From an uncultured Pelagibacteraceae bacterium (GTDB taxonomy: Bacteria > Pseudomonadota > Alphaproteobacteria > Pelagibacterales > Pelagibacteraceae): a stretch of 64,000 nucleotides of DNA. Below are positions 43,621 through 49,101 of this stretch, in pieces. The notes under the pieces are model-generated. The model ran no database searches. It was not told the DNA's origin and saw only the letters and a program-made list of their open reading frames with translations. Numbering within the stretch: position 1 is the stretch's first letter; the number at the start of each line of letters is the position of its first letter. A program made the translations under genes and the position numbers. The stretch is taken from positions 1 through 64,000 of the forward strand of contig CACJHW010000001.1 of assembly GCA_902593285.1 (NCBI GenBank), given 5' to 3'.

Positions 43621-44309
43621 TTGTTTAAATGATCAATTAGTTTTATGGTGTTATTTTTTATATTACCTTTTGTAAGAGATCTTCCTATAACAATACCAGA
43701 AACCTTATTTTTAAAAGCTTGTTTAGGTGTCATAATTCTCATTTGATCATTTGAACTATCACCAGGCAATCTTATTCCTGGAGTTATGATTAATAAATTT
43801 TTGTATCTTTTACGAACCATCAAAGCTTCTTGAGCAGAACAAACTATTCCATCACATCCAGATTTTTTTATTATTGCTGCTTGTTTTAAAACAAGCTGTT
43901 TTACACTTTTTGTATGACCTATCTCTTTAAGAGACTTATCGTTAAGACTTGTCAAAATTGTAACTCCAAATATTTTAATATTTTTATTTATTTTTTTGGC
44001 CTTTTTTTTTATAGCCTTAAGCATTTCAAAACCACCGTTTGCATGTACGGTTATATATTTACAATTTTTTAAATCTTTTAAGCTTCCAATAGCAGATAAT
44101 GCTGTTTGAGGAATATCATTTATTTTTAAATCTAACCAAAAATCTTTTTTAAATTTCTCTAAAAATTTTCTTCCTTGTTTTGAGTAAAAGAATTGAATTC
44201 CAAATTTTGGAATTATATTAAGTTTGTTTGTATTAGTTTCGCTTATTATTTTCTTTATTTGATTTAAATTTGAAGTATCACAAGCAACAAAAATACTTTT
44301 ATTCTTCAT
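43617..44309 (-). CDS. pyrF: orotidine 5'-phosphate decarboxylase
   Basis: 230 residues. Catalytic Lys-Asp array in FWLDLKINDIPQTALSA (canonical DLKFHDIPNT), N-terminal VACDT, GCDGIVCSAQEA, TPGIRLPGD and GIVIGRSLTKG. It produces UMP. It is located between ihfB and trpF. Confidence 0.93.
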   Translation of the reverse strand: MKNKSIFVACDTSNLNQIKKIISETNTNKLNIIPKFGIQFFYSKQGRKFLEKFKKDFWLDLKINDIPQTALSAIGSLKDLKNCKYITVHANGGFEMLKAIKKKAKKINKNIKIFGVTILTSLNDKSLKEIGHTKSVKQLVLKQAAIIKKSGCDGIVCSAQEALMVRKRYKNLLIITPGIRLPGDSSNDQMRIMTPKQAFKNKVSGIVIGRSLTKGNIKNNTIKLIDHLNK

Positions 44310-44592
44310 TATTATTTAATTTATTAAACAAGTCTTTAGACATTTTAAAGTGAATATTTTTTTTTTCAGGAGTGTTTACTTTTTCACCTGTTTTAGGATT
44401 TCTAGATATTCTCGCTTTTTGAATATTTGTTGAAAAAACTCCAAAACCTCTCAATTCAACTCTATCTCCTCTTTTAAGCGCTCTCTTGATTTCATTTAAA
44501 ATAATATTTGTAAATTTTTCGAGATCTTTTTTGAGAAAATTTGGATAGTTATTTGAAAGTTGTTTTAAAAGCTTTGATTTTACAATAGCCAA
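44299..44592 (-). CDS. ihfB: integration host factor subunit beta (HU family)
   Basis: 97 residues of the HU/IHF fold. GDRVELRGFGVFST and the ARISRNPKTGEKVNTPEKK arm match IHF, and the position after rpsA is that of ihfB in proteobacteria. DNA-bending nucleoid protein. The alternative name HU cannot be fully excluded. Confidence 0.88.
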   Translation of the reverse strand: MAIVKSKLLKQLSNNYPNFLKKDLEKFTNIILNEIKRALKRGDRVELRGFGVFSTNIQKARISRNPKTGEKVNTPEKKNIHFKMSKDLFNKLNNNEE

Positions 44593-44609
44593 TTTAAGTC
44601 TTCTTAAAA

Positions 44610-46337
44610 TTATTCTTTTTCTTCTTCTTTTTTCTTAAGTGCATCAGATAAAGATGAAAATGGTAAGTTTTTACCAGACCCTTCTGATCCATACTTCTCT
44701 AATGCTTCTTTTTTTTCTATTTCTTCTAAAAGTTTAATGCTCAATGTGACTTTTCTTTTTGAAAGATCTAGTTCTGCTATCGCACAATCTAGTTTTTCAC
44801 CACCTGTCCATCTATTTGGACGAGCATCAGCAGCATTAATAGCTATTGCTGATTTTTTGATTTGAAAATCCATTTCACATCCTTCAGGTCTTACTATCAA
44901 GCCCTTGTTATCCGTAGTCATAACCTTAACAGTAATAGTTTGATTTTTTGATTTATCTTTAAACCAATCAAAAGGATCTGATTGTGTTTGTCTCAATCCA
45001 ACTCTAATTTTTTGCTCAGAAGTTTTAATTTCTAAAACTTTTACCTTAATTTTGTCACCTTTTTTATATTTTGCTAACTCTTCCTCTCCGTTATTTAAGT
45101 AAGTTAGATCATTACAATGTAAAAAAGCATCTATATCTAATTCTTCAATTTTTACAAAAAGAGAGTATTCATTCTTATTAACCACCTCACCCTCTACAAT
45201 TGCACCTACTGGATATTTTTTCTCGAAAGTTTCGAAAGGATTATCTTGAGTTAATCTGTGAGAGATTGCAATTCTTCTTTTATCTTTGTCTATTTCAGTT
45301 ATCACACAATTTATCTCATCGCCAACTTTAAACATTTTTTTAGCTGATATATTTTTTTTAGTCCAGCTTAGTTCGCTCGAATGCAAAAGAGTTGTCAAGC
45401 CTGGTTCTAATTCACAAAATGCTCCAAAGTCCATTATTTTTACAACTTTAACTTTATATACTTTATTCAGTTCGTAATTTTCAATATGTTCAAATGGATC
45501 TGGAGATAATTGTTTTACAGAACAACCAACTTGTAGTTTTTCTTTATCAACACTTATTACTTTTAAATCATGCTTTTCCCCAATATTAAATACTTCATCA
45601 GGATGATTAACTCTTGAGTAAGATATTTCTTGTAAATGAACAAGAACATCTAATTCACCATTAACATTAAAAAAGCATCCGAAATTACTATAACCTTTTA
45701 CTTCAGCACCTTTAATAATGTCACCAACTTTATATTTGTCTACAATTTTAGCTTTATCTTCTTTTTTAAATGATGAAATTATTTCTCTTCTAGATACACA
45801 TGCATTACCTCTTACTTTATCTAGTTTAATTAGAGCAAATTTTTGAGGTTCGTTCATTAAATGACTAATATCTTTTAAAGGTTTATCGCTTATTTGAGAT
45901 CCAGGTAAAAACATTAATGAACCAGTATCAATGTGCTCTACTATACAACCTCCCTTACACTTAGAAGTAATTTTACCCATAATAGGTTCTTTCTTTTCGT
46001 AAGCTTCAACCAATTTGTCCCAACCTTTAATTTTCTGCGCTTTGCTAGCTGAAACTAAAACGTCACCATTTCTATCTTCAATCTTTTCCAATAATACTGA
46101 AATTTTTTCTCCAACTTTAATTTTATCTGCAAGACCCATACTCTTGAGCTCATTTATATCTAGAACTGGTTCAGATTTTAATCCTTCAACAAAAAGAAAC
46201 ACAAATTTTTCTGTTATTTTATTTATTTTACCTTCTATGATTTTACCTTCTTCGATTTGAATTTTTGATAACTGGCTATTTAGTAATTTCTCGAATTCTT
46301 GAGACGCTGGGTTAGAGAGATCTTTATAAATTTCCAT
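44610..46337 (-). CDS. rpsA: 30S ribosomal protein S1
   Basis: 575 residues with six S1/OB repeats; the best are VDKYKVGDIIKGAEVKGYSNFGCFF and ELNKVYKVKVVKIMDFGAFCEL. It unfolds and recruits mRNA on the small subunit. The first repeats are degenerate as usual. It overlaps cmk by 14 nt, the classical cmk-rpsA-ihfB order. Confidence 0.96.
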   Translation of the reverse strand: MEIYKDLSNPASQEFEKLLNSQLSKIQIEEGKIIEGKINKITEKFVFLFVEGLKSEPVLDINELKSMGLADKIKVGEKISVLLEKIEDRNGDVLVSASKAQKIKGWDKLVEAYEKKEPIMGKITSKCKGGCIVEHIDTGSLMFLPGSQISDKPLKDISHLMNEPQKFALIKLDKVRGNACVSRREIISSFKKEDKAKIVDKYKVGDIIKGAEVKGYSNFGCFFNVNGELDVLVHLQEISYSRVNHPDEVFNIGEKHDLKVISVDKEKLQVGCSVKQLSPDPFEHIENYELNKVYKVKVVKIMDFGAFCELEPGLTTLLHSSELSWTKKNISAKKMFKVGDEINCVITEIDKDKRRIAISHRLTQDNPFETFEKKYPVGAIVEGEVVNKNEYSLFVKIEELDIDAFLHCNDLTYLNNGEEELAKYKKGDKIKVKVLEIKTSEQKIRVGLRQTQSDPFDWFKDKSKNQTITVKVMTTDNKGLIVRPEGCEMDFQIKKSAIAINAADARPNRWTGGEKLDCAIAELDLSKRKVTLSIKLLEEIEKKEALEKYGSEGSGKNLPFSSLSDALKKKEEEKE

Positions 46338-46992
46338 TAATAAGTAATTTTTTATCTATTATTTTTTTTATTTTTAAAAAACATGCCCTTTTATTAAGGT
46401 TTGTCGTATTAATCAATAGTGAATCTTTTGTTTTCTTTAAGGGAGAAATCTTTCTGTTAAAGTCGCTTTTATCACGGTTTTTAATGCTTTTTAGAACTTC
46501 ATTGTAAGTAATGCTTTTTTTTAATGATTTTAACTCTTTATATCTTCTTAAGGCTCTTGTTCTTAAATTTGCAGTTATATAAAATTTAAAATCTGCATCG
46601 GGAACAATTTTATAGGTTATGTCACGACCATCAAGGCATGATCCTTTGTATTTTTTTGGAGGATTGTATGCAAAGTTTAATTGAAATGAATGAACCAGGG
46701 CTCGAATTTTTTTTATTTTAGAAATCTTTGAAGCTTCTGTTCCAATATTATCAGATAATAGAATTTTACTTGATAGTGTTTTTTGTTTTAAAGTATCAAT
46801 TTTCGATTTAACAAATTTTTTACTAAATTTATTTGGATATTTTAATTTTAAATATGCGATATATCTATATATTTTTCCAGTATCTAAGTAAAAAAGATTA
46901 AAGTGTTTTGATATAGATTTTGCTATTGTCCCAGCACCTGCAGCAGCAGGTGAGTCTATTGCAACTTTTACAATATTTTTTCGTTTAATCAT
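46324..46992 (-). CDS. cmk: cytidylate kinase with degenerate P-loop
   Basis: 222 residues. LDTGKIYRYIAY, CLDGRDITYKIVPDADFKFYITA, RYKEL and KNRDKSDFNRKISPLKK match Cmk throughout. The nucleotide-binding loop at residues 13-22 reads DSPAAAGAGT where the family has DGPAASGKGT: Gly to Ser14, Ser to Ala18, and the invariant Lys to Ala20 (codon GCT). The rest of the protein shows no sign of decay. Located between aroA and rpsA in the standard order. Confidence 0.9.
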   Translation of the reverse strand: MIKRKNIVKVAIDSPAAAGAGTIAKSISKHFNLFYLDTGKIYRYIAYLKLKYPNKFSKKFVKSKIDTLKQKTLSSKILLSDNIGTEASKISKIKKIRALVHSFQLNFAYNPPKKYKGSCLDGRDITYKIVPDADFKFYITANLRTRALRRYKELKSLKKSITYNEVLKSIKNRDKSDFNRKISPLKKTKDSLLINTTNLNKRACFLKIKKIIDKKLLINGNL

Positions 46993-48319
46993 TTTTTTTA
47001 ATATTGTTAATTATTTTTAAAAAATTAGGAAAAGATGTTTTTATAGAATCTTTATCATGTATTTCCCAGTTTCCTCCAAATGATAAAGCAGCTATTGTGC
47101 TAGTCATAAATACTCTATGATCTTTCAAATAATTTTTAATAATTATTTTTTTATTTTTATTCAAATTTAAATTTGGATTACCAAATATTTTAATGGAATC
47201 TCTTGTTGATATTGTCTTTACGCCAATTTTATTTAAAATCTTTTCACCCCACATTAATCTAGGACTTTCTTTTTGATTTAATTCATCTAATTTTTTAAAA
47301 TAAGATATGCCCTTAGCTTTAGCTGCAACTAAAAAAATAACAAGAAATTCATCTATAGCCTCGCTATTGAATTCAACAGGGCAGTTTATACCTTTAAGTG
47401 TTTTAGCACTCTTAATAATTATATCAGCAATTTTTTCACCTTTATATAATTTTTGATTTTTGAAATTAATCTTTACACCCATCTTTTTTAAAATTTTTAT
47501 TACCCCTATTCTTGAAGGATTAATATTTACATTACGAATTATTAATCTTGAATTGTTTGATAATGCTGTAAGAACAATAAAAAATGCACTGGAGCTAATA
47601 TCTGAGGGAATTTTATAATTAAAATTTTTAATTTTTTTAATTTTTTTTATATTAATAATATCATATTGCTTATGTTTTTTATTTACTGATATAGGTAGTT
47701 TTAAATATTTACACATAAGTTCAGTATGGTTCCTAGATTTTTTGGCTTTAATTTTTGTTAAACCACTGGATCTTAATCCTGCAAATATTGCTGCACTTTT
47801 ACATTGAGCTGAACCTCTATTTTCAAATATATATGATCCCCTTAATTTTTTATTTCCATAAATAATAAGAGGTAAACTTTTATTATTTTTTAATTTAAAT
47901 GAGGCTCCAAATTTGCTTAGTGGTTCAGAAATTCTTTTAAAATCTCTTTTTGATAAACTTTTATCACCAATCAATTTGATTGGATAATTTGTGTTAATAA
48001 GCAAACCAAGTATAAGCCTTCCTAAAGTTCCTGAGTTTTTAGCGTCTAAAACAAGATTTTTTTTATAGTTATAACCAGCAAGACCTTTTCCATAAATTTT
48101 ACAACTATTTTTATTTAAGTTTACTTTTATACCTAGCTTCTTTATTGCCTCAATTGCAGAAATAACATCTTCTGACATTAGTAAATTTTTTGCTGTGGAT
48201 ATGCCATTTGCTAACGAGGATAATAAAATCCATCTAATACTTATACTCTTGTCACCACTCACTAAAATTTTCTTTGAAAAATTATTTATTTTTTTTTTAA
48301 TAATTATAGAATTAGCCAT
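46985..48319 (-). CDS. aroA: 3-phosphoshikimate 1-carboxyvinyltransferase (EPSP synthase)
   Basis: 444 residues. SGDKSISIRW (PEP-site Lys, Ser, Arg), AKNSGTLGRLILGLL, GSAQCKSAAIFAGL, and DHRVFMTSTIAALSFGG identify AroA. Several sub-motifs drift: KESPRL where KESDR is usual, EAIDEF where IDE..ILA. Still, the overall pattern is intact. Sixth step of the shikimate pathway; aroB and aroK are at 9520-11125. Confidence 0.93.
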   Translation of the reverse strand: MANSIIIKKKINNFSKKILVSGDKSISIRWILLSSLANGISTAKNLLMSEDVISAIEAIKKLGIKVNLNKNSCKIYGKGLAGYNYKKNLVLDAKNSGTLGRLILGLLINTNYPIKLIGDKSLSKRDFKRISEPLSKFGASFKLKNNKSLPLIIYGNKKLRGSYIFENRGSAQCKSAAIFAGLRSSGLTKIKAKKSRNHTELMCKYLKLPISVNKKHKQYDIINIKKIKKIKNFNYKIPSDISSSAFFIVLTALSNNSRLIIRNVNINPSRIGVIKILKKMGVKINFKNQKLYKGEKIADIIIKSAKTLKGINCPVEFNSEAIDEFLVIFLVAAKAKGISYFKKLDELNQKESPRLMWGEKILNKIGVKTISTRDSIKIFGNPNLNLNKNKKIIIKNYLKDHRVFMTSTIAALSFGGNWEIHDKDSIKTSFPNFLKIINNIKKND

Positions 48320-48324
48320 AAAAA

Positions 48325-49101
48325 CTAACTAATCTTAAAATTATCACCAAAATACGCATTTTTAGCATTAATATTTTTTACTAAGTTTGATGGTGTATCT
48401 TCGGCAACAATTTTACCATTACTAATGATCATTGCAGCATCAACACATGCCAACAAATCTCTTGCTTGGTGATCACATATACAAATAGTAATTCGATTTT
48501 CATTTTGTAGATTTACAATTATTTCTTGTAACATCTTTATTGTTAATACATCTAGTGCAGCAAAACATTCATCCAAAAGTAATACTTTTGGATCACTTAA
48601 AAGTGCAAGAGCAATTACTAATTTCTTTTTTTGGCCGCCTGATAGAAATTTTGCCTTTATATCTTTTAAATTATCAAGCTCAAATTTTGAGATAAGATAA
48701 TTAATTTTTTCAATTCTATAATTTTTATTTTCTATTACAATTTCACTAATTGCTTTTAAATTATCATGAAGGGTAAGGTCATTAAAGTAACCACCGTGCT
48801 GTGGAACGTAACCAACTTTAAATTTTTTTGTTCTAAGAAATGTAGGATAGTTTAAAACATTTTCACCAGCTATTTTAATTAGACCGTTTTTCGGAGAAAC
48901 TAGCCCAGTAATCAAATTGAAAATTGTAGATTTTCCAACTCCATTTGGACCTAGCATTCCAAATATTTGGCCCTCATTTATTTTAAAATTTATATTATCT
49001 AGAATTAATCTGTTTCCATAGGCAAGTGAGACATTACTGAATTCAATTATAGAATTAATATTTTTGAATGATTTTATTCTAAATTTTTTAATTATAGCCA
49101 T
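48325..49101 (-). CDS. lptB: LPS export ABC transporter ATP-binding protein
   Basis: 258 residues. Walker A GPNGVGKST, Q-loop GYVPQHGGYF, signature LSGGQKKKLVIA, Walker B LLLDECFAALD (Cys where Pro is usual), H-loop ICDHQARD. The C-terminus NAYFGDNFKIS matches LptB's yLG..F. LptB powers LPS extraction with LptFG, which are not in the window. lptC is directly upstream. Confidence 0.88.
   Translation of the reverse strand: MAIIKKFRIKSFKNINSIIEFSNVSLAYGNRLILDNINFKINEGQIFGMLGPNGVGKSTIFNLITGLVSPKNGLIKIAGENVLNYPTFLRTKKFKVGYVPQHGGYFNDLTLHDNLKAISEIVIENKNYRIEKINYLISKFELDNLKDIKAKFLSGGQKKKLVIALALLSDPKVLLLDECFAALDVLTIKMLQEIIVNLQNENRITICICDHQARDLLACVDAAMIISNGKIVAEDTPSNLVKNINAKNAYFGDNFKIS

Follow-up and report, generated by a model that had tools for sequence, protein, structure and literature searches.

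The Walker A lysine is a hallmark of P-loop NTPases, and an enzyme in which it has been mutated is the standard "dead" version of such a protein. In bacteria generally, the gene for cytidylate kinase (Cmk) is found in the order aroA-cmk-rpsA. Described bacterial Cmks (PF02224, TIGR00017; E. coli 2cmk, S. aureus 2h92, Thermus 3akc) share their fold, this gene order, and the Arg and Asp residues of the CMP and phosphate sites with the proteins considered here, whereas the latter form a clade that is without the Walker A lysine and has Ser in place of the first Walker A glycine. In a Thermus CMP kinase–ADP–CDP structure, Lys15 connects the two nucleotides through their terminal phosphates (PMC7259600), so it is this ADP–CDP bridge that the lysine-less Cmks lack. 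Within the open-access literature, we found no paper on a lysine-less Cmk from SAR11.

The gene that led us to this clade lies in a 64,000-nucleotide stretch of Pelagibacteraceae DNA, referred to below as the window, with the following features:

46985..48319, minus strand: aroA, presumably EPSP synthase, from homology and gene order; 8-base overlap with cmk
46324..46992, minus strand: cmk, a cytidylate kinase homologue without the P-loop lysine, 222 amino acids (PF02224, TIGR00017, AlphaFold2 model)
46927..46956, minus strand: P-loop DSPAAAGAGT, residues 13-22, with Ser14 for Gly and Ala20 for Lys
46873..46875, minus strand: Lys40 (DTGKIYR), candidate substitute positive charge
46388..46416, minus strand: promoter-like TTGATT-N17-TAAAAG within the 3' end of cmk, from alignment and a consensus match by eye
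44610..46337, minus strand: rpsA, presumably ribosomal protein S1, likewise from homology and gene order; 14-base overlap with the end of cmk

The cmk gene of the window

The original prediction described a Cmk whose P-loop reads DSPAAAGAGT at residues 13-22, with a GCT-encoded Ala for the lysine and Ser for the first Gly, in an aroA-cmk-rpsA gene order. Each of these points is borne out in the open reading frame 46992..46324 on the minus strand, with the Ala20 codon at 46935-46933 (minus strand) and all three genes on that strand. The protein scores 149.4 bits against PF02224 in a profile search (cut-off 26) and narrowly passes TIGR00017 (137.8 bits versus a cut-off of 135.55), and it is the sole PF02224 match in its 1.04-Mb, 79% complete genome. 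An AlphaFold2 model built from 46 lysine-less sequences (mean pLDDT 87; model residue numbers are the protein numbers minus one) has the CMP kinase fold: the first 21 rows returned by Foldseek are all CMP kinases, and VIA-align gives Z 22.4 to 3r20, with 17 CMP kinase rows spanning Z 16.8-22.4. The canonical Walker A pattern (GxxxxGK[ST]) is not found in the window protein, which is without both the invariant lysine and the first glycine. By homology, then, the protein is a Cmk, though not a canonical Walker A protein. An Rfam scan of positions 44300-48400 gave no match at the gathering threshold.

Judging from the conservation and gene history set out below, we consider it likely that this Cmk is an active enzyme, phosphorylating CMP/dCMP with a lysine-free P-loop.

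Spread of the lysine-less P-loop

Among the 80 Pelagibacteraceae loci fetched with the window protein, a set biased in that it consists of close relatives only, all 79 that cover the P-loop read SPAAAGAG[TS], L102 being cut before this point. A strict DNA pattern for the lysine-less motif has matches in 144 of the order's 397 genomes, every one of them in genus g1, the window's own genus. The original prediction would have been undone by a sequencing error or by close relatives with a normal lysine. The 79 relatives and 144 genomes carrying the motif rule out both an error and the oddity of a single genome, and the second objection does not apply to these 79, the lysine-bearing proteins belonging to other Cmk lineages. 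All 79 show the change, but it does not extend throughout genus g1, other species of which have lysine-bearing Cmks.

We collected 199 distinct lysine-less Cmks from Pelagibacteraceae. At residue 20, 196 of them have Ala, two Gly and one Ser; at residue 14, 198 have Ser. Left out of our counts are L102 and L231 (no P-loop), L187 (10-base placeholder), L219-L227 (partial or weak matches), duplicates in the alignment, the native copies with frame breaks in G122, G325 and G191, the disrupted gene of G263, and the gene of G201, which is truncated by a contig end; L275, L276, and L280-L282 are also outside the 199-sequence alignment. The 140 rows of this alignment that have no family tag are Pelagibacteraceae or genus g1 loci. 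From the 144 pattern-matching genomes, 30 and 80 loci were taken, and some of the remaining 34 genomes entered through other searches.

Variant lysine-less loops also occur in further g1 genomes, and of seven genus g9 Cmks whose loops were read, three are lysine-less (SPSAAGAGT, SPVAAGAGT, and ATAGSGSTS), the other four having the lysine. The most divergent loop of this kind is that of L170 (G196, genus g9), where Ser replaces the lysine in DATAGSGSTS. Genus g1 additionally holds lysine-bearing Cmks of other lineages, some with GSSASGKTT-like loops at the native locus and others, with GE[AS]ASGKST, that sit away from it. Of the g1 genomes with a Cmk match (n = 196), 126 have a close match (E 1e-40 or better), 69 a distant one and one a fragmentary one, a split made by E-value only, with close matches taken as lysine-less and distant ones as lysine-bearing. 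Genus g6 retains GPAASGK[GN]T, with the lysine. In the wider class, where 276 genomes matched, all 29 P-loops seen in the best 30 loci have the lysine, the remaining locus, L231, being without its N-terminus in the alignment.

A quick tree of 163 Cmks, midpoint-rooted and without bootstrap, with many forks left open, places all 76 lysine-less rows in one clade (SH-aLRT 98) that requires one change. Because every other row of the tree has the lysine, this change is a loss, and a single clade makes one loss the simplest history.

Two further observations concern the surroundings and relatives of these genes. In the SAR11 relatives L185, L203, L205, and L206 (genera g7, g11, and g5), a single frame of 655-669 codons apparently encodes aroA and cmk as a fusion. 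A viral origin of the lysine-less Cmk is rejected, since a profile scan and two peptide patterns yielded no confirmed relative in viral_contigs, and the Cmks in 20 phage records are only 27-35% identical.

Selection and probable gene replacement at the aroA-rpsA site

Over 205 close pairs, dN/dS of the lysine-less cmk has a median of 0.078, compared with 0.158 over 30 pairs for the lysine-bearing SAR11 group with GE[AS]ASGKST (pairs at least 86% identical, dS 0.1-1.5). The 181 identical DSPAAAGAGT loops are encoded by 178 DNA spellings, so synonymous change has been plentiful while the protein motif stayed fixed. The lysine-less cmk has been under strong purifying selection since the lysine was lost, and the earlier view that it is not a decaying pseudogene was correct: on the strength of this median, a pseudogene reading is rejected for the intact lysine-less genes. 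We likewise give very little credence to the idea that cmk is a relaxed, dispensable gene leaving streamlined genomes. The native pseudogenes of G122 and G325 and the empty sites of 15 genomes described below would fit such a departure, but the low dN/dS of the intact copies contradicts it for the clade, and both pseudogenes occur beside an intact second copy.

Fifteen genomes altogether have no native cmk between aroA and rpsA. Thirteen genomes with an ectopic GE[AS]ASGKST Cmk were tried and aroA was found in 12, in all of which it is followed by rpsA without a full cmk between them. The same empty site is present in G185, G192, and G204 (90-92% complete; sites L258, L259, and L262, which are counted among the 15), and searches of these three genomes for a Cmk found none. 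At 12 of the 15 empty sites, the DNA matches a profile of the lysine-less cmk 3' end above all 200 simple two-base shuffles, at 2.9 to 44.4 bits, with some matches of only 3-5 bits; these comprise 10 of the 12 sites in ectopic-Cmk genomes and two of the three in genomes where no Cmk was found. L259 falls short, scoring 2.0 bits at the same place with one of 200 shuffles equalling it, and at L305 and L307 this profile has no credible match. Profiles of lysine-bearing cmk 3' ends were built from 5, 15, and 6 sequences, the lysine-less profile from 128. On the empty sites the lysine-bearing profiles score no higher than 1.7 bits; they beat all 200 shuffles at L305 (1.7 and 1.4 bits), L306 (-0.8), and L308 (0.5), but at different positions in the model. 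The most distinct scar, that of G181, has 27 readable residues with 63% identity to the window protein. Given these scars of a lysine-less 3' end at emptied sites, a lysine-less-type gene probably once stood there, in genomes where an ordinary ectopic Cmk now serves.

The promoter-like TTGATT-N17-TAAAAG, roughly 50 bases before rpsA and inside coding cmk, may by eye be the rpsA promoter. The stretch around this element is the part that survives cmk loss in L258, L259, L262, and L296-L303, and because the scar overlaps this stretch, its survival may be due to rpsA.

Some genomes hold more than one Cmk. In G122 and G325 the native lysine-less copy has stops and frame breaks, and each of these genomes also carries an intact lysine-less copy at another place. 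G211 combines a native lysine-bearing Cmk with a relocated one that is lysine-less, and both copies in G271 are lysine-less. Of the 16 cases examined with a second Cmk elsewhere, 14 have a disrupted or missing native copy (the 12 empty sites, G122, and G325), and the two counter-cases, G211 and G271, make the mutual exclusion of Cmk copies incomplete. This replacement history suggests that CMP kinase function was retained, and its natural reading is that lysine-less and ordinary Cmks are redundant, serving the same function. The possibility of "another role" for the protein, raised at the outset, is disfavored by it. However, no Cmk was found in G185, G192, and G204, so cells may be able to do without the function, and a lost or replaced gene does not have to imply an equivalent one.

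A Cmk match is absent from 32 of 297 genomes. Twelve of these were searched for rpsA and nine were without it too, for which reason the absence of Cmk in the nine is read as an assembly gap; G185, G192, and G204 make up the remainder of the twelve. The nine are G029, G095, G112, G168, G194, G198, G207, G307, and G335; six of them were also searched for aroA, with no match in five and a weak partial match in G095. The aroA-cmk-rpsA region may repeatedly drop out of SAR11 assemblies. A frame break in the native lysine-less cmk of G191 (L285/L290) and of G263 (L283) could reflect either decay or assembly error.

A second CMP/UMP kinase, the search for which the original prediction had proposed, was not found in six near-complete lysine-less genomes (G012, G066, G067, G070, G072, and G083), which yielded neither a second Cmk nor a CMP kinase of the ADK type. 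Searches with the ADK family (PF00406) covered 12 genomes: 11 have a single adk each, and none was found in the 79% complete genome of the window, G000; those 11 are near-complete and include the six lysine-less ones, and the adk loop is a normal GPPGAGKGT. A second ADK-family match in G065 is its Cmk. With Cytidylate_kin2, two of the six lysine-less genomes give the Cmk itself, below cut-off, and four give nothing. The idea of a second Cmk or ADK-type kinase standing behind the lysine-less Cmk is accordingly set aside, with G000 itself only 79% complete.

Proposed phosphate transfer without the Walker A lysine

Every one of the 199 lysine-less Cmks keeps Tyr42, Arg43, Arg97, Arg123, Asp124, Arg149, Arg150, Arg173, Asp177, and Arg180, and within the P-loop Gly19 is present in 199, Gly21 in 198 and Thr or Ser22 in 199. 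By our own residue matching, Thermus counterparts of several of the ten invariant residues are among those that bind CMP or CDP and the transferred phosphate (PMC7259600). The claim that all Cmk motifs other than the lysine are intact thus holds for the catalytic Arg and Asp residues but not for the Gly14 to Ser change, nor for residue 195, which is Asn in 130 of 135 lysine-less Cmks, whereas most lysine-bearing Cmks, one group aside, have Asp there. By our count along the Thermus structure, residue 195 would lie near the adenine side.

Could the protein bind CMP and yet be catalytically dead, with some other role such as regulation or scaffolding, and with CMP recycled otherwise or not at all? 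The lysine that, in the Thermus structure, connects the phosphates of donor and acceptor is absent (PMC7259600), three genomes have no Cmk that we could find, and cmk loss is reported, with conflicting data, to be non-lethal in E. coli (PMC3603445). We nevertheless regard a dead protein as unlikely, in that the arginines matched to those binding the transferred phosphate and closing the LID show the same invariance (199/199) as the CMP-binding ones and that ordinary lysine-bearing Cmks replace the gene in related genomes. Less probable again is an active kinase that takes its phosphate from a different donor, be it pyrophosphate, polyphosphate, or a nucleotide other than ATP, and so would have no need of the Walker A lysine. 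Such a change would agree with a donor-side loop altered at Gly14 and Lys20 beside unchanged acceptor-side residues, and with the prevalence of Asn at residue 195, but Gly19, Gly21, and Thr/Ser22, which shape the loop for ATP phosphates, are retained.

We instead infer that the lysine-less Cmk still transfers phosphate from ATP to CMP. The donor phosphates would be held by the P-loop main chain, and the transition-state charge would be carried by the LID and core arginines Arg123, Arg150, and Arg173, together with Arg43. In the simplest mechanism, main chain and arginines would suffice, and help from Lys40 would constitute a stronger form of the same proposal. Going by P-loop geometry, the Gly14 to Ser change may fill the room vacated by the lysine side chain. 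Lys or Arg40, with which the NMP-binding helix begins, may provide the charge that in other enzymes comes from the Walker A lysine and sits between the donor and acceptor phosphates.

That another residue must take over for the lysine, as first proposed, is upheld to the extent that position 40 offers a candidate, with Lys or Arg in 196 of the 199 lysine-less Cmks (the exceptions are L124 and L140, with Met/Leu at this position, and L384) and in only one of 33 lysine-bearing Cmks of the same family outside g6. In g6, which has both lysines, it is present in all three. But the necessity does not follow: family f2, with a normal P-loop lysine, has Lys or Arg40 in 19 of 22, and by parsimony on the tree the class of residue 40 changes twice in 14.0 units of the lysine-less clade versus eight times in 35.2, a rate only modestly lower. 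Family f2, the three exceptions, and this tree count weaken Lys40 as a strict replacement. By motif, Lys40 aligns with the Asp of adenylate kinase STGD, which is found in nine of 11 ADK loci of the order, a position near the metal and terminal phosphates. Other lysines, considered as alternative substitutes, are fixed more sharply than Lys40: across the 76 clade rows of the tree, none of Lys187, Lys207, and Lys209 changes class, and residues 207 and 209, with 14 and nine class changes outside the clade, are lysine in 196 and 197 of 199 lysine-less Cmks. In the AlphaFold2 model, Lys207 and Lys209 belong to the C-terminal helix, and the DNA for this helix is within the stretch kept at emptied sites, so their conservation may reflect DNA upstream of rpsA. 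That Lys40 took over the Walker A charge, giving a natural lysine-relocated P-loop NMP kinase, is therefore a reading that we put forward only tentatively. Under it, Lys40 would already have been present in an ancestor beside a normal Walker A lysine, the state seen in g6; the Walker A lysine would then have been lost once, and the new active site would have spread through the genus.

In sum, a clade within SAR11, which are very abundant marine bacteria, dispenses with the Walker A lysine in a core nucleotide kinase, and the motif alone is insufficient for calling such genes pseudo-kinases. Related genomes hold many of the steps, with both lysines, one, or the other, and with the gene replaced or decayed, which makes the role of the lysine testable.

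Among known systems, the g6 Cmks (L171-L173) are the best lysine-bearing relatives by E-value (to 5.9e-50), with 44-45% identity to the window protein. In common with that protein they have Lys40, here in DSGKLYR, and the AYNPPK segment, but they differ in having GPAASGK[GN]T, with the lysine kept. A functional precedent comes from the mycobacterial dephospho-CoA kinase CoaE, a P-loop kinase with core, acceptor, and LID parts: a Lys14Ala change lowered kcat by 19% and raised the Km for ATP by about half, most of the kcat thus being kept, and the same type of lysine change is said to abolish activity in some other enzymes (PMC3019153). To state that loss of this lysine normally abolishes transfer, as the original prediction did, is accordingly too strong, though CoaE Lys14Ala is a laboratory mutant and the lysine-less Cmks are a natural family. 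Natural kinases without the textbook lysine are represented by WNK1 and POMK, whose activity has been demonstrated and in which the lysine occupies another position (PMC10211241). These have the unrelated protein-kinase fold, whereas in the lysine-less Cmk a move to Lys40 is a tentative proposal; if true, the relocated Lys40 would be the P-loop counterpart of the WNK lysine move.
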